A stretch of DNA of 7,665 nt from JBHIBR01 sp046759145 [NCBI: Nitrospinota bacterium]. GTDB taxonomy: Bacteria; UBA8248. The DNA is taken from contig JBHIBR010000079.1 of NCBI GenBank assembly GCA_046759145.1, positions 1 through 7,665 on the forward strand, read 5' to 3'. The notes below the pieces were generated by a model. The model did no database searches. It saw only the letters and a program-made list of their open reading frames with translations, and was not told the DNA's origin. Below, one piece after another: positions 2,991 through 7,665 of this stretch. The number at the start of each line of letters is the position of its first letter. Position 1 is the first letter of the stretch. A program made the position numbers and the translations under genes.

Positions 2991-5141
2991 ATGGTGGGCA
3001 AGGGTTGGGGGATTTTCCTCTGTACCTGTAATGGCGCGTTGCGTCCCGACCCCGTCCGCGTCCAGCAGCTCCTGGGCCTTGCCGAGCCACCCACCGTCCT
3101 CAACCGGCTCTCCCGCGATGAATTCCACAAAGTCTGCGCCAAGACCAAGGAGGCGGGCTACCGCCATCTGCTTCTGGGCTGTTGTGGCAGCCGTGAGCAG
3201 CTCGAGTTCCTCCAGGGCTCGAGCGGGGAGGACCTGCCCCCGCTCCATCTCCTCAACCTCAAGGAGCGCTGCTTCTGGCCTCATGGCGAGGGGGCCATCG
3301 CCCAGGGGAAGGCCGCCCGGCTCATCCGCGCCGCCGTCGCCGCTGCGGACTCCGCCTCCAGGCGCGGACCTCAGGCCGTACAGGTCCGGGCCGAGAGCCG
3401 CGTCCTGCTGGCGGGCGAACCCGGGGCCTGCGCCCGGCTGGCCGCCAAGCTGCTCCCCCACGTCCAGCCCGTCTTGGCCGTCGATGAGTCCCTTCGGCTT
3501 CACGATGGCCGCCAATTCTATCCGGCCGGGATGGCCCTCAAGCGCGGGCGGGTGAGGGCCATCGAAGGTCATCTGGGCCAATTCCGGGTGAGGATTCAGA
3601 CTACCGACGCCATCGACCTCCACGCCTGCACCCGCTGCAACCGGTGCATACCCATCTGTCCCACCTCGGCCATCACCGAAGGCCTCCACCTCATCGAAGA
3701 GAGATGCGACGAGTGCGGCGATTGCATCGTGGCCTGCGGAGAGGTGAGGGCCATCCAGCTCCACCGGGTGGAGGAAGAGACCATCGAGGTGGACCAGGTC
3801 GTGCTGTGCGGTTGGGAGCCTGACCCCTCCCTGGGGACCCGGCGGCCCGGCATCCACGTGTGGCCGCTGGGCAAGTGGGCGCCCGAGGAGTTGCTCCTCT
3901 CGCAGGTGGTCGCCCTGGTCGGCGAGTTCTCCAAACCCCGTTTTGTGACCCATAGCGCCGACATCTGTGCGGCCGGGTCGGCCGACTTCAAGGGCTGCGG
4001 CATCTGCATCCCCCAGTGCCCCTATGATGCCATCGAGCGCGACGGGCGGCGCATCCGCCTGGACGCGGTGAGCTGCGAGGGCTGTGGTGCTTGCGTGGCG
4101 GCCTGCCCCACTTCCGCGCTGGAGTTCAGCGACCCGAGCTTCGGCGGGGTCCTGGCCCAACTGGACGCCCTGTTGGCGCCCCTGGCGGGGGCTGCGCCCT
4201 CGGAGGATGGCGGGCCCCCCCCAAAGCCCGTGGTGCTTTTCCACTGTGGCACGGCGGGAAGCCAGATGGTCGAGCGGGCGGGCATGCGGGGCCTGCCCTA
4301 CGATGGCGGCGTGTTCCCGGTCCAAGTCCCCTGCCTGCGCTATCTCTCGGAGGGCCACCTGCTGGGGGCCATCCGGCGGGGGGCGGCGGGGCTCTTCCTG
4401 TTGGGTTGCGCCCATTGCCCCAACGGGGAGGAGCGCCAGATCCTGCACGACAAGGTGGAGTTTGTCCGCACGATGCTGGAAGGCTTCGGCCTGGGTCGGG
4501 GGCGGGTCGCGCTGTGCACGGCCGAGCCCGATGAGGAGGAAGTGGCCCTAGAGGCTTTGGGCGAGTTCCTCGGGAGGCTGGCGCCCGGCCCGCTGCCCTC
4601 CGCTGGCCTCCCGGCGCGGGGGAGGCCGACGGCGCGGGAGGAGGTGAACGAAGCGCTCCACCGCCTCCTCTCCGTCACGGGTGAGACGCCGGCGCCGGTG
4701 GCGACGGAGGGCCCCCTGGGCTACGGCTTCGTCGAGGTGCGCGAGGGGGGCTGCACCCTTTGCCGGGGCTGCGTGTTCGTCTGCCCCAGCCACGCCCTGA
4801 GGCTCGTGGAAGAGGCCCGCGGCCTCGAGTTTTTGCACACCGCCTGCGTGGGCTGCGGCATGTGCGAGAAGGCCTGCCCCGAGGGGGTGGTCACCTTGAA
4901 GCGGGAGCTGCGGGTGGAGGAGGCGGCTTTCAGCTACCAGGTGAAGGCCCGGGACCAGATGGTGGGTTGCGCCAAGTGCGGCAAGCCCTTCGTCAACCGC
5001 CGGGCCCTCACCCGCATCCAGGAGAAGGTGACCGCCCTGGCCTTGCCCGCCTTTGTGCGGGGCGGGACGCACCTGCTGGAGATGTGCCCCGACTGCCGGG
5101 CCGTGGAGGCCATCATGGAGAGCGACAGATGGTCGATCTGA
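2991..5141 (+). CDS. soluble multi-cluster iron-sulfur protein with HdrA/MvhD-like parts, formate dehydrogenase associated
   Basis: A 716-residue cytoplasmic electron-transfer protein; no signal peptide or membrane segment. In order: an N-terminal GIFLCTCNG (7-15), like the start of HdrA; LLGCCG (61-66); RVLLAGEPGACARLAAKL (137-154), a Rossmann-like stretch without a clear GxGxxG, so FAD binding is doubtful. Two ferredoxin motifs follow at Cys213/216/219/223 and 239/242/245/249. A second pair is Cys336/339/343, with Cys326 as likely fourth ligand, and Cys362/365/368/372. Residues 413-530 resemble MvhD/FlpD, with Cys419, VPC448 and GCAHC (472-476). A C-terminal pair is Cys588/591/594/598 and 619/622/625/629. 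Last comes a zinc-ribbon-like Cys660/663...699/702. Thus up to six [4Fe-4S] clusters. As I recall, similar '4Fe-4S binding proteins' precede TorD-like chaperones and fdhA in betaproteobacteria, role unproven. The start has GGAG (2977-2980) ten bases upstream. It is the first gene of the operon. Electron transfer with FdhA or a maturation role are both possible. Confidence 0.85.
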   Translation: MVGKGWGIFLCTCNGALRPDPVRVQQLLGLAEPPTVLNRLSRDEFHKVCAKTKEAGYRHLLLGCCGSREQLEFLQGSSGEDLPPLHLLNLKERCFWPHGEGAIAQGKAARLIRAAVAAADSASRRGPQAVQVRAESRVLLAGEPGACARLAAKLLPHVQPVLAVDESLRLHDGRQFYPAGMALKRGRVRAIEGHLGQFRVRIQTTDAIDLHACTRCNRCIPICPTSAITEGLHLIEERCDECGDCIVACGEVRAIQLHRVEEETIEVDQVVLCGWEPDPSLGTRRPGIHVWPLGKWAPEELLLSQVVALVGEFSKPRFVTHSADICAAGSADFKGCGICIPQCPYDAIERDGRRIRLDAVSCEGCGACVAACPTSALEFSDPSFGGVLAQLDALLAPLAGAAPSEDGGPPPKPVVLFHCGTAGSQMVERAGMRGLPYDGGVFPVQVPCLRYLSEGHLLGAIRRGAAGLFLLGCAHCPNGEERQILHDKVEFVRTMLEGFGLGRGRVALCTAEPDEEEVALEALGEFLGRLAPGPLPSAGLPARGRPTAREEVNEALHRLLSVTGETPAPVATEGPLGYGFVEVREGGCTLCRGCVFVCPSHALRLVEEARGLEFLHTACVGCGMCEKACPEGVVTLKRELRVEEAAFSYQVKARDQMVGCAKCGKPFVNRRALTRIQEKVTALALPAFVRGGTHLLEMCPDCRAVEAIMESDRWSI

Positions 5142-5842
5142 TCGGCGACCGGGAGGTGGCCCAGTACCGTCGCCGCAACTACGAATTCTTCACCACCCTG
5201 CTCCTGGAGCCGCCCTCCGATGAGCTGGTGGATTTCATGGCGAGCGAGAGGGGTCTCCTCAAAGAGCGGCCCCCGGGGGAGGAGCCCGGAGAGGGCTGGC
5301 GGGAGATGGCCGAGATGGTGTCCCTCTCCCTGGGCAGGCTTGGGGAGTTTGCCGAAGAGCTCCGCGATGAGTTCACCGCGCTTTTCATCGGCCCCCAGGG
5401 TTACATCCTCCAACCCTATGAGTCCTACCAGCTCACGGGCGCCTTGATGGGTGCGCCGCTGCTGGAGGTGAAGGAGTTTTGCAGGCGGGCGGGGTTCGAG
5501 AAGGAGGAGGGGTTCAAGGAGTTCGAAGACCACGCTGCTTACGAGCTGGAGTTGATGCGCCAGCTCATCCTCAAACAGGAGAGGGCAGAAGACCCCGAGG
5601 GAGAGGCCGCGTGGCTCAGCTTGCAGAGAGAGTTCCTCCACAAGCATCTGCTGCGCTGGCTGTCGGACTTTTTGGGCGAGCTGGAGAGGCATCGCAGGGC
5701 GCAGTTCTACAAGGGGTTGGCCATCGCCGCCCGGAACTTTCTCGAGCTGGAGGAGGACCTCTTCCGGCTGAGCGAGACGGACTGGGGGGGCGGCGCCAAA
5801 CCAGCCGCTCTGGGGCATGATCTTCCGAGGGACTCGGGATAA
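5129..5842 (+). CDS. TorD/DmsD/NarJ-family molybdoenzyme chaperone
   Basis: A 237-aa cytoplasmic, all-helical chaperone. Members bind the Tat signal of a molybdoenzyme and hold it until cofactor is loaded, here most likely FdhA. Family marks are clear: an N-terminal helix with NYEFFTTLLLEPPSDEL (17-33); the signature DEFTALFIGPQGY...QPYESYQ (80-101), matching the family's E-x2-x-LF-x-GP...PYES pattern; and FEDHAAYELELM (132-143), the equivalent of the PDH-x3-EL-x-FM motif. Helical FLHKHLLRWLSDFLGELE (169-186) follows. Residues after about 215 are a loose Gly/Pro tail. The ATG at 5129 lies 13 bases inside the end of the Fe-S gene, with GGAG at 5117-5120 eight bases upstream, so the two are probably translationally coupled. 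The gene after it starts 15 bases past the stop. Identification is strong; the exact client is inferred from the neighbours. Confidence 0.9.
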   Translation: MVDLIGDREVAQYRRRNYEFFTTLLLEPPSDELVDFMASERGLLKERPPGEEPGEGWREMAEMVSLSLGRLGEFAEELRDEFTALFIGPQGYILQPYESYQLTGALMGAPLLEVKEFCRRAGFEKEEGFKEFEDHAAYELELMRQLILKQERAEDPEGEAAWLSLQREFLHKHLLRWLSDFLGELERHRRAQFYKGLAIAARNFLELEEDLFRLSETDWGGGAKPAALGHDLPRDSG

Positions 5843-5857: not shown

Positions 5858-6115
5858 ATGGATGAGCAGGGCCTGTTTGAGGTGACGGTCAAGTCGGTGG
5901 TCCCCGAGCAGGGCATCGCCCGCGTCGTCGACGAGAGAGGAGAGGAGCTGGAGCTCTATGTCGATGACGAGACCTCCATCGAGGTCGTCGAGCACGAGAC
6001 GGTGGGCCACATCGAGGGCGAGCTCGGAGACATAGGGGAGGGCTATCTGGCCGAGGTCATCGTGGAGGACAGGGACGGGAAGAAGGTCTGCCGCCTGCTG
6101 CGCTGCTTGAGCTAG
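5858..6115 (+). CDS. very acidic small protein of unknown function in the formate dehydrogenase operon, 85 aa
   Basis: I do not recognise this protein. It begins MDEQGLFEVTVKSVVPEQG, has 23 Asp/Glu against 8 Lys/Arg (net charge about -15), and ends with a basic tail carrying two Cys, CRLLRC (78-83). The alternating hydrophobic/charged pattern (FEVTVKSVV, IARVVDERGEELELYVDDETSIEVVEH, LAEVIVEDRDGKKVCRLL) predicts a small all-beta fold, OB- or barrel-like. There is no signal peptide. The ATG has an excellent AAGGGAGGTG ribosome site (5841-5850), which overlaps the end of the chaperone's stop codon, so it is firmly inside the operon. Comparable betaproteobacterial clusters, as I recall them, carry DUF3305/DUF3306 genes; those are absent and this may fill a similar accessory role. 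A binding partner for the chaperone, a metal or Fe-S factor is conceivable but unsupported. Confidence 0.75.
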   Translation: MDEQGLFEVTVKSVVPEQGIARVVDERGEELELYVDDETSIEVVEHETVGHIEGELGDIGEGYLAEVIVEDRDGKKVCRLLRCLS

Positions 6116-6154
6116 CGGCGCAGCCTGCGGCCCGATGAGGGAGGAGGGTTGCGC

Positions 6155-6364
6155 GTGAGCGAACGCAAGCCAGAGGAAGGGGCCTCCAGCCGTCGGGGCT
6201 TCTTCAAGGCTCTGCTGGGCGGGACGGCGGCGCTGGCCGCCCTCGGGGGCCTGAAGGGCACCAAGAAGGCCGAGGCATCGGGCTCGCGCTGGGGGGGCCA
6301 CGGGGCGAGCCGTTACCGCCTGACGGCGGACATCCGCAAGTATTACGAATCGCTACTCAAGTAG
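6155..6364 (+). CDS. formate dehydrogenase region Tat-target mini-protein, 69 aa
   Basis: A tiny exported protein that matches the 'formate dehydrogenase region TAT target' type (TIGR02811) in size, position and layout. I chose GTG 6155, because GAGGAGGG (6141-6148) sits six bases upstream; the in-frame TTG at 6149 abuts that site. The N-terminus is MSERKPEEGA, then the twin-arginine motif SSRRGFFK (11-18) and a hydrophobic stretch rich in Ala/Gly/Leu (about 19-33). Next is KKAEAS, with likely cleavage after Ala41. The mature part would be only about 28 residues, with Gly/Arg-rich SRWGGHGASRYR and a conserved-looking tail ADIRKYYESLLK. Such proteins are encoded just before fdhA in several bacteria and their job is unknown. 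It begins 39 bases after the acidic protein and ends 13 bases before fdhA. No Cys or other metal-site cluster is present, apart from one His. Confidence 0.85.
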   Translation: MSERKPEEGASSRRGFFKALLGGTAALAALGGLKGTKKAEASGSRWGGHGASRYRLTADIRKYYESLLK

Positions 6365-6377
6365 GGAGGGCCGCACG

Positions 6378-7665
6378 ATGCAATTCAAGCGGATCGCCGG
6401 CAACGGCGCCTCCCGCTCCGCCCCTTTCCGCGCGAGCTGGGTGAACCCGGCCATCGACCGGCGCAGCTTCTTGAAAGCCAGCGGCGCGGGTCTGGGAGCC
6501 GGCCTGGCGGCCTCGTTGCTGCCCGCCGGCCTGGTGCGAAAGGCGGAGGCGCAGGCGGTTGAGGCGCCCAAGTATGAGGAGCACAAGACCATCTGTAACA
6601 AGTGCGCCGTCGGCTGCGGCATCATCGGGAAGGTGAAAGACGGCGTCTGGGTGAGGCAGGACTCCTGGCAGGACCACCCCATCAGCCTGGGGGGCCTCTG
6701 CTGCAAGGGCTCGGCGGCCCGGGAGGACGTGGTCGGCGCCAAGCGCCTGAAGTACCCCATGAAGAAGGAAGGGGGGAAGTGGAAGCGCATCCCCTGGGAC
6801 CAGGCGCTGAGCGAGATCAGCAAGCAGCTCCTGGAGATCCGCAAGCGCGCGGGCCCCGACGCGGTCTTCTGGCCGGGCTCGGCCCACTTCACCAATGAGG
6901 CGGCCTACCTCCACCGGAAGTTCGCCGCCTTCTGGGGGACCAACAACTCGGACCATCAGGCGCGCATATGACACTCCACCACCGTGGCCGGTCTGGCCAA
7001 CGTGTGGGGCTATGGGGCGATGACCAACAGCATGAACGACATCCGCAACTCCAAATGTGTGTTCATCATCGGCGAGAACCCCTCCGTGTCGCACCCCATC
7101 TCGATGCAGCACATCCTGACAGCCAAGGAGCGCAACGACGCCCCCGTCATCGTGGTGGACCCGCGCTTCACCAAGACGGCGGGGAAGGCGACCCACTACG
7201 TGCGGATCCGCCCGGGCACCGACATCGCGTTCATCATGGGGCTGATCAACGTCATCGTGAACAACGGCTGGGAGGACAAGCAGTTCCTCAAGGACCGGAC
7301 CTACGGCTATGAGAAGTACCTCTTGCCGGAGATCCAGAAGTATCCCCCGGAGGTGGTGTCGGAGATCACCGGCGCCCCCAAGCGGCAGATCGAGACGGTG
7401 GCCAAGCTCCTGGCGGACAACCGCCCGGGCACCATCATCTGGGCCATGGGGGGCACCCAGCATCACAACGGGCACGTCTTCACCCGCTCCTACTGCATGC
7501 TGCAGTTGGTGCTCGGCAACATGGGCAAGGCCGGGGGCGGCGCGAACGTGTTCCGCGGCCACGACAACGTCCAGGGGGTGACCGACCTGGGCGTGCTCTC
7601 CAACACCCTTCCCGGCTACTACGGCCTGAGCGACGGCGCCTGGAAGCACTGGTCGCGGGTGTGGG
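6378..7665 (+). CDS. fdhA: formate dehydrogenase catalytic subunit, selenocysteine-containing, Tat-exported (C-terminus beyond window)
   Basis: Molybdenum or tungsten bis-pterin enzyme oxidising formate to CO2 on the periplasmic side. 429 residues are visible; family members have about 800-1000. GGGAGG upstream (6364-6369) supports the ATG. An N-terminal extension leads to the twin-arginine motif DRRSFLKAS (27-35), a hydrophobic stretch and an AEAQA cleavage site (about residue 60). The [4Fe-4S] motif is Cys73/76/80 with Cys108 in LCCKG. The frame then meets TGA at 6969-6971 and continues without interruption as [20 protein letters not shown], exactly the family's catalytic U/C-H-S/G segment, so the TGA encodes Sec198, with His199 as the partner residue. 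Later blocks fit molybdopterin-enzyme folds: [48 protein letters not shown] and [22 protein letters not shown] standard gene caller would wrongly stop at 6971. Beta and gamma subunits likely follow outside the window. Confidence 0.93.
6969..7007 (+). promoter_or_regulatory. selenocysteine UGA codon and SECIS-like hairpin
   Basis: The bacterial SECIS lies inside the coding region directly after UGA and is bound by SelB. Here GGCC (6986-6989) pairs with GGCC (6995-6998) around a GGTCT loop, very like the GGUCU-containing loop of E. coli fdhF. Below it, G6984-C7001 and T6985-A7000 (A6999 bulged), then AC/GT (6981-6982 with 7002-7003) and CCAC/GTGG (6976-6979 with 7004-7007) extend the stem with single-base bulges. 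The loop lies about 20 bases after the UGA, the expected spacing. Confidence 0.75.

Follow-up and report, generated by a model that had tools for sequence, protein, structure and literature searches.

A predicted cytoplasmic iron-sulfur protein encoded beside TorD as a probable maturation factor for Tat-exported molybdoenzymes

The 716-residue iron-sulfur protein described here, P1, is probably a cytoplasmic maturation factor that serves Tat-exported molybdenum or tungsten enzymes beside a TorD-type chaperone, and its clients are likely to be above all formate dehydrogenases of the FdhABC/FDH3 type. A maturation role is the most likely reading of the gene context on which it rests, and the chemical step is one that we infer: Fe-S delivery as the specific step of P1 is a tentative proposal, held with less confidence than the role itself. 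The sequences themselves show a composite architecture, a linkage to TorD and Tat-signalled enzymes, a conserved cofactor core and, in several lineages, a grouping with genes for cofactor and Fe-S assembly; an apparent move to a non-formate enzyme is seen as well. Formate dehydrogenases of the exported Shewanella/FDH3 type attract interest in work on CO2 reduction and formate respiration, and to our knowledge little is established on how their Fe-S clusters are put in ahead of Tat export, NapF being the main precedent. P1, an unnamed and widely spread protein that accompanies TorD and the catalytic subunit, and here and there ApbC or NifU, puts this question within reach of tests in a laboratory strain.

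The window, by which we mean the whole 7,665-nucleotide stretch of DNA that was analysed, holds the following features:

2991..5141, + strand: P1, a 716-aa HdrA/MvhD/HycF-like iron-sulfur protein (ORF, families, structure)
2997..3365, + strand: HdrA-like N-terminal domain, residues 3-125 (profile match to HdrA, Cys positions)
3378..3614, + strand: HdrA flavoprotein-domain remnant, first part, residues 130-208 (dinucleotide motif degenerate)
3618..3755, + strand: ferredoxin pair 1, C213-C249 (Pfam, Cys positions)
3774..3935, + strand: HdrA flavoprotein-domain remnant, second part, residues 262-315 (structure match)
3942..4130, + strand: ferredoxin pair 2, C326-C372, first motif C-x9-C-x2-C-x3-C (Cys positions, conservation)
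4215..4613, + strand: MvhD-like fold, residues 409-541, with C419, C448, C473 and C476 (Pfam, structure, Cys positions)
4722..4910, + strand: ferredoxin pair 3, C588-C629 (Cys positions, conservation)
4953..5138, + strand: HycF-like end, with the quartet C660-x2-C663...C699-x2-C702, K665 and R703 (structure, conservation, HycF literature)
5129..5842, + strand: TorD-like chaperone (PF02613, E 1.9e-29)
5858..6115, + strand: 85-aa protein (no family matched in the family search)
6149..6364, + strand: small Tat-target-like protein of fdh regions, TIGR02811-like (29.1 bits, cut-off 48.45)
6378..7665, + strand: FdhA catalytic subunit with Tat motif, truncated by the window end (TIGR01591, E 4.5e-111, TGA as Sec)
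6969..6971, + strand: in-frame TGA in FdhA read as selenocysteine, [12 protein letters not shown]

The reading frame of P1 is open from 2991 to 5141 and clearly coding, with a third-codon GC of 0.88, where the window as a whole has 0.68. An earlier note had described the protein as an HdrA-like N-terminus followed by three ferredoxin pairs with up to six [4Fe-4S] clusters, an MvhD-like region and a zinc-ribbon-like end, with neither a clear FAD site nor an export signal; this description held up, and structure prediction of P1 alone, which the note had proposed, gave an AlphaFold model that matches HdrA, MvhD and HycF. Specifically, HdrA chains match a profile of the window protein and 19 relatives (20 full-length sequences) at E 3.7e-41 (2-214 on 13-267), and model residues 3-396 align with residues 11-654 of HdrA 8rvy_A with Z 12.8 and rmsd 4.7. 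The order of parts in HdrA, an N-terminal Fe-S domain and then a C-terminal ferredoxin, is present in P1 by both profile and model. Since only 348 of the 644 residues of 8rvy_A were aligned, a large part of the HdrA flavoprotein domain is missing, and neither alignment nor model yielded an FAD-binding site: GxGxxG is degenerate and the stretch after it is missing. The motif is degenerate in most relatives too, though one of them (L020) retains a GxGxxG-like sequence. All 24 cysteines of the three ferredoxin pairs (213-249, 326-372, 588-629) are intact, and judging from cysteine positions a seventh [4Fe-4S] site is possible in the HdrA-like N-terminus at C11, C13, C64/C65 and C94.

The MvhD-like region is recognized by the Pfam family FlpD (E 1e-12 at 414-528) and by the match of MvhD to the model (Z 13.9, rmsd 3.1, 133 residues); C419, C448, C473 and C476 could possibly hold a [2Fe-2S] cluster there. 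The zinc-ribbon-like end turns out to be specifically HycF-like, with HycF matching the C-terminal end of the model at Z 10.6 and rmsd 2.5 over 130 residues, and for short-form P1 this end also gives the top PDB match (Z 10.6, rmsd 3.4, 128 residues). By hydropathy, no membrane or signal-like segment is seen in P1, the highest 19-residue mean being 1.42. The export signal claimed for FdhA is likewise there as a Tat motif, with a TAT_signal match at residues 26-45 that lies below its cut-off.

With HdrA and the HdrA2-MvhD fusions P1 shares the N-terminal domain, the core of the FAD domain, the ferredoxin order and the MvhD fold, but it has no flavin site, lacks much of the flavoprotein domain, and scores 121.5 against a cut-off of 1100. 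With HycF it shares the ferredoxin pair and the CxxC...CPxC quartet, a cysteine site described in the available part of PMC9474812, including a basic residue two positions after the second cysteine (K665 in P1, Arg122 in HycF). However, HycF belongs permanently to a membrane hydrogenase complex whose formate dehydrogenase is cytoplasmic; in the annotated neighbourhoods of P1, hydrogenase structural genes were not noticed. For the contact between HycF Arg122 and FdhF Glu621, the C-terminal alignment of FdhA to FdhF scored -1.4 bits, too low to carry weight for or against conservation of the partner residue.

P1 has relatives in NC10, ANME-1, haloarchaea and the alpha-, beta- and gammaproteobacteria, and most of them have TorD and a Tat-exported molybdoenzyme as neighbours. 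TorD follows P1 at 77 of 80 loci, and at the remaining three P1 itself is broken by a contig end. A loose pattern finds Tat motifs in 66 of the 67 FdhAs linked to P1 and in 29 of 29 further alpha subunits. Among 229 gammaproteobacterial genomes P1 is present in 29 and a close FdhA in 27, with both in 25 (Fisher p 4.9e-27, uncorrected for kinship). The P1 count leaves out 29 of the 58 matched genomes, whose weak matches (E 1e-20 to 1e-28) are mostly open frames of ~720-840 aa, presumably HdrA; the FdhA count leaves out one of 28 (G089, E 7e-61), the weakest match kept having E 2.6e-84. Homologs consistently away from fdh genes, which the earlier note had named as a finding that would speak against it, are not what is seen, the exceptions being two loci (L015 and L053) where P1-TorD is present and FdhA was not found in 5.8 and 9.3 kb downstream, and the arsenic-type loci discussed below.

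Other departures are of several kinds. In one gammaproteobacterial genome (G154) TorD and FdhA are present but a search for P1 at E 1e-20 was negative, which may mean that P1 is dispensable; one locus (L202) has P1 and FdhA and no TorD match. Two apparent exceptions (G071, G110) have FdhA at a contig end; the locus of G146 is broken by a contig end and that of G031 lies at one. G213 holds a decayed fdh locus with FdhD (named by eye), DUF3305, DUF3306, P1, a short TorD and a cytochrome b fragment, where FdhA was not found. For NC10, six of eight matched genomes were kept (the partial matches of G324 and G268, E 1e-36 to 1e-34, were discarded), and a companion search kept five of 24 at at least 60% identity, leaving out 19 at 33-39%; G332 and G261 are near contig ends. 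One set of 20 archaeal regions, from 19 genomes, was hand-picked from 75 genomes with a match, and the plasmid sample is 11 records, one of them unannotated, out of 83 and 76 matched from largely the same organisms.

P1 and the fdh structural genes diverge at eight of the nine annotated FDH plasmid loci, as in several lineages, and P1 is often grouped with MobA, ApbC or NifU genes; at a beta locus, for example, P1, TorD and MobA share one strand. Genes for ApbC/NBP35 Fe-S carriers come directly after P1 at two loci (L170, L201) and downstream with one or two genes between at three more (L161, L168, L169), and NifU/IscU follows P1-TorD in 5 of 20 archaeal loci, a sixth having a piece at a contig end. 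The ApbC or NifU neighbours are confined to some lineages. At some loci P1 is grouped with FdhD, MobA and MoeA-type genes, which could suggest that it donates the sulfur or selenium completing the Mo/W ligand sphere. This is very unlikely: all 23 P1 genomes tested already have FdhD, which is the known sulfurtransferase, Pfam finds no sulfurtransferase domain in P1, and the linked FdhAs are mostly cysteine enzymes (64 Cys, 1 Sec and 2 not determined at the active site, n=67). With Cys in 64 of 67, a role of P1 as a Sec factor is ruled out.

A second alternative is that P1 senses redox or Fe-S state and controls whether the enzyme is exported or expressed, for instance by freeing the TorD-bound precursor only under reducing, iron-replete conditions. 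P1 has many Fe-S sites, its 3' end contains the TorD-like ATG, with a 13-base overlap of the two frames, and its end carries the HycF-like quartet, whose counterpart in FHL is proposed, in the available part of PMC9474812, to adjust the affinity for FdhF according to redox state. Against a sensor, Pfam finds neither a DNA-binding nor a signalling domain in P1, and a separate Lrp-type regulator gene lies near P1-TorD in 9 of 20 archaeal loci. We regard a sensor as unlikely.

The conservation of the cysteines was read from two sets of rows. The main set has 97 rows, including 73 gammaproteobacterial, 18 archaeal and 6 NC10-type, and a second set of 14 includes alpha, beta and haloarchaeal rows. 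Seven of the eight cysteines of pair 2 are kept in all 97 rows, pair 3 is invariant at 8/8 across the same rows, and the C-terminal quartet is present in 97/97 and in 14/14 of the second set. The two haloarchaeal rows of the second set that have lost C591 of pair 3 have also lost most of pair 1. The HdrA-like N-terminus and pair 1 are missing from 72 of the 73 gammaproteobacterial rows; the N-terminal cysteines are partly retained in some alpha and beta rows, and two beta rows retain seven of the eight cysteines of pair 1, so that this loss holds for the gamma rows and not for proteobacterial relatives generally. In the MvhD fold, C419 and C448 are present in 6/6 NC10-type rows, C419 in 7/18 and C448 in 13/18 archaeal rows; neither is among the residues listed for the 73 gamma rows, and the alpha and beta rows of the second set have lost the MvhD cysteines.

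These losses bear on the alternative that P1 is a cytoplasmic electron hub, linking a pool of formate dehydrogenase that stays inside to cytoplasmic carriers. It is assembled from HdrA, MvhD and HycF, all electron-transfer proteins, an origin that counts against maturation; the beta rows retain most of its ferredoxin cysteines; and the authors of a study of HydN and YsaA prefer alternative electron routes, which in the available part of PMC6004506 these proteins are proposed to provide for FDH-H. However, the rows just described lack pair 1, the N-terminus or the MvhD cysteines, P1 has no flavin site, and the linked alpha subunits carry Tat motifs. Moreover, FdhB and a cytochrome b subunit are present in 56 of 58 gamma loci and FdhB with NrfD at an NC10 locus (L002), so an electron path exists without P1.

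P1 also stands beside a non-formate enzyme. In Natronorubrum and in one further genome (G520, a haloarchaeon with two copies of P1) it is linked to an ArrA/PhsA-like enzyme, and these arsenic-type P1s are nested among FDH-linked P1s (100/98). In haloarchaea P1 has apparently been recruited to an arsenic-type molybdoenzyme. The recruitment, the grouping with cofactor genes and divergence from the structural genes, and the loss of pair 1 and the MvhD cysteines where pair 2, most of pair 3 and the quartet are retained favour maturation over an electron hub, which we consider improbable; a hub dedicated to formate is unlikely given the context of TorD, Tat motifs, cofactor genes and a non-formate enzyme. 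Of the three roles offered in the earlier note, electron hub, redox sensor and maturation factor, the last is the best supported. Gene context does not separate cluster delivery from electron supply or regulation.

For maturation, the HycF-like C-terminus of P1 would dock on the catalytic subunit, or on the FdhA-FdhB pair, in the cytoplasm. Fe-S clusters would next be delivered or repaired by the ferredoxin pairs, or these would provide electrons that set the state of the cofactors, after which the enzyme would leave via Tat and P1 would stay behind. A bolder version is rather unlikely: that P1 represents a new class of molybdoenzyme maturase, a bifurcating HdrA-MvhD stripped of its flavin and turned into a cytoplasmic docking and charging station, which would clamp the catalytic subunit through a formate-hydrogenlyase-type interface, test or load its Fe-S chain and gate its passage through Tat, and which could be re-targeted, as in the haloarchaeal arsenic-type loci. 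It is a guess that poor yields, if any, of such enzymes in foreign hosts without the P1 gene might be explained by its absence.

The nearest precedent in kind is NapF; the available text of PMC10609526 reports that it binds the nitrate reductase NapA and that Fe-S reconstitution of NapA requires it. NapF is cytoplasmic, as P1 is predicted to be, and like P1 it has several [4Fe-4S] sites and is encoded beside a Tat-exported Mo enzyme, and P1 is by these predicted properties NapF-like in functional class. HydN and YsaA (PMC6004506) serve as a further precedent. NapF is small, with four motifs, whereas P1 adds the HdrA, MvhD and HycF parts, and its score with the curated napF model (TIGR00402) is 52.5 bits against a cut-off of 102.2, over the ferredoxin-motif stretch. 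FdhE is also an accessory to Tat-exported formate dehydrogenases, with CxxC metal sites (PMC10609526, same part). Its presence in 1 of 23 P1 genomes, with FdhD in all 23, first suggested that P1 replaces it. This was rejected: FdhE is in 5 of the 229 gammaproteobacterial genomes, none with P1 or a close FdhA (Fisher p 1), and because it is so rare in the class, its absence from 22 of 23 P1 genomes is no evidence of replacement. The FdhE domain PF04216 is absent among the 15 Pfam matches of P1 at E 0.1. FdhE lies in an fdn-type cluster and P1 with fdhABC, also inside one genome (L221, L054): the two are accessories of different FDH lineages, even within one genome.

The gene has been drawn before. 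The 'fer4' of torD-fdh and related operons (Bay et al. 2015, PMC4464133), a figure-legend label, is very probably the same gene as P1, and no role for it is given in the part of that paper available; a functional study of P1 was not found in the literature searched, so the statement that its function is not established stands. SoFdhAB, an oxygen-tolerant member of these enzymes, was recently solved and is described in the available part of PMC13397495 as a dimer of FdhA and FdhB; its FdhA (9vap_A) scores 977 bits to the FdhA of the NC10 locus L002, and Shewanella oneidensis SO4506 is a probable ortholog of P1. Among the smaller genes of the window, the 85-aa protein has weak relatives only at the NC10 loci L001 and L002 (tblastn, 80 loci scanned). 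At gathering thresholds Rfam gives nothing within the window; the TGA of FdhA is followed by a hairpin whose loop is GGTCT, with a fold of -19.1 kcal/mol.

The genes for P1 (the 716-aa iron-sulfur protein), the TorD-like chaperone, an 85-aa protein, a small Tat-target-like protein and FdhA all run in one direction in the window:

2991-5141, forward strand, P1
from 5129 (ATG), forward strand, TorD-like chaperone, beginning inside the 3′ end of P1
5858-6115, forward strand, the 85-aa protein
6969-6971, forward strand, in-frame TGA of fdhA, read as selenocysteine in its 12-residue context; the gene is partial and runs off the window end

The 40 bases after this TGA can fold into a stable hairpin (-19.1 kcal/mol) whose loop is GGTCT and which we take to resemble a bacterial SECIS element; the region has no Rfam match at gathering thresholds. 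The window FdhA carries a Tat motif. The 85-aa protein is without a family and has weak relatives in the same place at two NC10 loci (36% and 33%).

The predicted structure of P1 (mean pLDDT 77, 38-row alignment) matches both the HdrA-like N-terminus and the MvhD-like region that the earlier note had read from the sequence: by model comparison, residues 3-396 resemble HdrA (8rvy_A; Z 12.8, rmsd 4.7, 348 aligned of 644) and residues 409-541 resemble MvhD (5odh_D; Z 13.9, rmsd 3.1, 133 aligned). The end previously called zinc-ribbon-like is present as a cysteine-quartet domain, for which the specific match is HycF (residues 578-709 against 7z0t_F; Z 10.6, rmsd 2.5, 130 aligned). In the HdrA part the flavoprotein domain is shrunken and split by ferredoxin pair 1 (C213-C249). 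This domain has a degenerate dinucleotide motif and has lost much of its length, so FAD binding by P1 is unlikely, in keeping with the earlier view that HdrA's clear FAD site is lacking. A GxGxxG-like sequence is still present in one relative (L020).

The closest relatives found are from NC10 bacteria (loci L001 and L002, 44-45% identity over the length), and the window P1 groups with the NC10 relatives in the tree. Ninety-seven sequences were aligned (6 NC10-type including the window, 18 archaeal and 73 gammaproteobacterial), and every row has seven of the eight cysteines of pair 2 (C326-C372), all eight of pair 3 (C588-C629) and the quartet C660/C663/C699/C702. Of the 73 gammaproteobacterial rows, 72 have neither pair 1 nor the HdrA-like N-terminal part, the sole exception being L137 from genome G130. 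The MvhD cysteines C419 and C448 are found in all six NC10-type rows and in 7 and 13 of the 18 archaeal rows respectively, and are absent from the residue list of the 73 gammaproteobacterial rows. This picture of module loss is tempered by a second alignment of 14 rows, including seven taken from plasmid entries (two beta, four alpha, one haloarchaeal) and a Natronorubrum protein: the two beta rows keep 7/8 pair 1 cysteines, and the N-terminal CxC is kept in one beta and one alpha row. The alpha rows are without pair 1, and the MvhD cysteines are gone from every alpha and beta row. In the two haloarchaeal rows, C591 of pair 3 is lost along with most of pair 1. All 14 rows have the C-terminal quartet. 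The short form, with its structure predicted for Vibrio tapetis (mean pLDDT 87.6), still best matches HycF (Z 10.6, rmsd 3.4, 128 aligned), with MvhD weaker (Z 8.2, rmsd 3.1, 119 aligned). Judged from the alignments, the end proposed to face the client and the greater part of two ferredoxin pairs are kept everywhere, and the HdrA-type entrance is optional.

TorD is the next gene after P1 in 77 of 80 loci on titled genome contigs, P1 being cut by the contig end in the remaining three, and FdhA is found in 67. In eleven of the 13 loci without FdhA the contig stops within P1 or near TorD; L015 and L053 have none across 5.8 and 9.3 kb downstream. A Tat motif is present in 66 of the 67 linked FdhAs, and for the exception, L048, only a C-terminal piece was read. 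Among 58 gammaproteobacterial loci, FdhD, FdhB and a cytochrome b subunit occur in 56 each, DUF3305 in 46 and DUF3306 in 49; among 20 archaeal loci, FdhB occurs in 8 and FdhD in 2. The order at NC10 L002 is P1, TorD, an 80-aa protein, a Tat-target-like protein of 82 aa, FdhA (Sec), FdhB, NrfD, FdhD, SelB and TatA, and at archaeal L012 (titled Methanomicrobiales; tree neighbour ANME-1 L005) it is P1, TorD, NifU/IscU, an Lrp-type regulator, FdhA, FdhB and NrfD/DmsC-type, with TatA and TatC beside. Twenty further, hand-picked archaeal regions have TorD beside P1 in 19 (exception L202) and FdhA in 19 (at L219 as an edge fragment only), L201 having an ArrA-like enzyme instead.

Of 229 gammaproteobacterial genomes, 29 have P1 (E at most 1e-50), 27 have a close FdhA (E at most 1e-83) and 25 have both (Fisher p 4.9e-27, kinship not corrected). 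Of 95 NC10-phylum genomes, 6 have full-length P1, 5 have a close FdhA (at least 60% identity) and 4 have both. Ten haloarchaeal or haloarchaeal-like loci (L167, L203-L211) have P1 and TorD divergent from fdhA; in L212-L218 the pair shares the strand of fdhA. P1 also diverges from the structural fdh genes in 8/9 annotated FDH plasmid loci, all nine with an annotated TorD. In Diaphorobacter P1 runs with DUF3305, DUF3306, TorD and MobA. In three Roseobacteraceae one or two genes separate P1 from a downstream gene for ApbC/NBP35, a carrier ATPase for [4Fe-4S] clusters. In an ANME-1 genome (L053, 9992-17945) P1-TorD has as neighbours hypF, hypD and hypA, which serve hydrogenase maturation, and a NUBPL-type ATPase gene. 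Such neighbours are those of an assembly factor.

In E. coli formate hydrogenlyase, the HycF quartet CxxC-x34-CPxC binds one metal ion adjoining the interface with FdhF, and Arg122 is seen in two orientations, toward the metal or toward an acidic patch of FdhF (PMC9474812). P1 has the same quartet and, in place of Arg122, a lysine (K665) at matching spacing in 84 of the 97 rows (5/6 NC10-type, 16/18 archaeal, 63/73 gammaproteobacterial), which by analogy makes docking on the FDH catalytic subunit through this end plausible. The authors of the formate hydrogenlyase study suggested redox control of FdhF affinity (PMC9474812), and a redox checkpoint exerted by P1 is the nearest rival to the reading that we favour, a maturation step. 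The earlier note had left hub, sensor and maturation roles side by side and found electron transfer across compartments not obvious. As a predicted soluble protein of the cytoplasm, P1 could not pass electrons to the Tat-exported enzyme, and the job is already possible for FdhB with NrfD or cytochrome b. There are also precedents. NapF, a cytoplasmic protein with four [4Fe-4S] motifs, is reported to bind NapA and to be required in one species for Fe-S reconstitution, with a marginal effect on activity in others (PMC10609526). The ferredoxin-like HydN and YsaA raise FDH-H activity, for which their authors prefer alternative electron routes (PMC6004506), and FdhM of Campylobacter is a TorD-family chaperone specific and essential for FDH (PMC4148689). 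We therefore favour maturation and set aside electron passage to the exported enzyme. The FDH precursor would be held by TorD in the cytoplasm while cofactors enter, the stage left for P1, which would deliver or repair Fe-S clusters, or supply electrons, on the bound precursor. The maturation role is supported by context and the chemical step is a proposal; the conserved, unnamed family is real, and a new architecture within redox-enzyme maturation proteins.

A second client is suggested by Natronorubrum bangense, where a PhsA/ArrA-related molybdoenzyme, an ArrB-like subunit and NrfD are followed by TorD and full-length P1 (26% identity along the length), with ApbC directly after P1 and arsR, arsD and arsA near. 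All family scores of the molybdoenzyme are below their cut-offs, and we therefore infer an arsenic-type substrate from its neighbours. Genome G520 has the same ArrA-like, ArrB-like, NrfD, TorD, P1 and ApbC set and a second P1 near FdhA. In the tree, the P1s of the arsenic-linked loci fall within those of FDH-linked haloarchaeal loci, beside G520's FDH-linked copy (100/98), and the TorDs of the arsenic-linked loci form a separate long branch. Thus P1 was apparently recruited from the formate enzyme to another exported enzyme, which apparently had its own TorD, the latter part being less sure because the TorD branch is long. Between the second P1 and fdhA of G520 is a frame (L202, 11811-13628) which presumably resembles aldehyde ferredoxin oxidoreductase; such an enzyme is annotated near P1 in Haladaptatus (L167).

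The function of the family is not established, as the earlier note had held: we found no functional study in the literature searched, which covered few subscription-journal papers. A 'fer4' gene is named in a figure legend of a 2015 survey of NarJ-family operons including torD-fdh (PMC4464133). Shewanella oneidensis SO4506, an 'iron-sulfur cluster-binding protein' numbered between SO4503 (FdhD) and SO4509 (FdhA), would by name and number be the P1 ortholog; PMC2535785 has it in a list of expression data and comments on it, and the number also occurs in PMC5826389. The structure of S. oneidensis FdhA of the P1-linked family is solved (9VAP; PMC13397495), and fdnG, fdnH and fdhE of this species are SO0101, SO0102 and SO0104 (PMC2535785). 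Photobacterium kishitanii (G020) has two separate Tat-FDH sets in one genome: an FdnG-type gene split at a stop, likely Sec, clustered with two small genes in the fdnH and fdnI places by position, FdhE and SelB (L221), and the P1-TorD-fdhABC set (L054).

A decayed fdh locus (L133, 4144-8421) has DUF3305, DUF3306 and P1 open, a short TorD, a cytochrome b fragment and fdhA missing. Alphaproteobacterial FDH3 loci (L161, L164-L166, L168, L169) share, near P1, a biotin/lipoate-protein-ligase-like protein, DUF6505 and, in most of them, DUF6494. In a Variovorax fdh operon a predicted CAE-1 beta-lactamase call over a short hypothetical gene (L162, 15333-15584) is probably false. Between the acyl-CoA dehydrogenase and P1 in the window, an 87-aa open frame (2303-2566) with no convincing family may be a real gene. 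The acyl-CoA dehydrogenase domain begins near residue 132-135 of its frame (249-1676), and the true start therefore probably lies some 390 bases past its first ATG.
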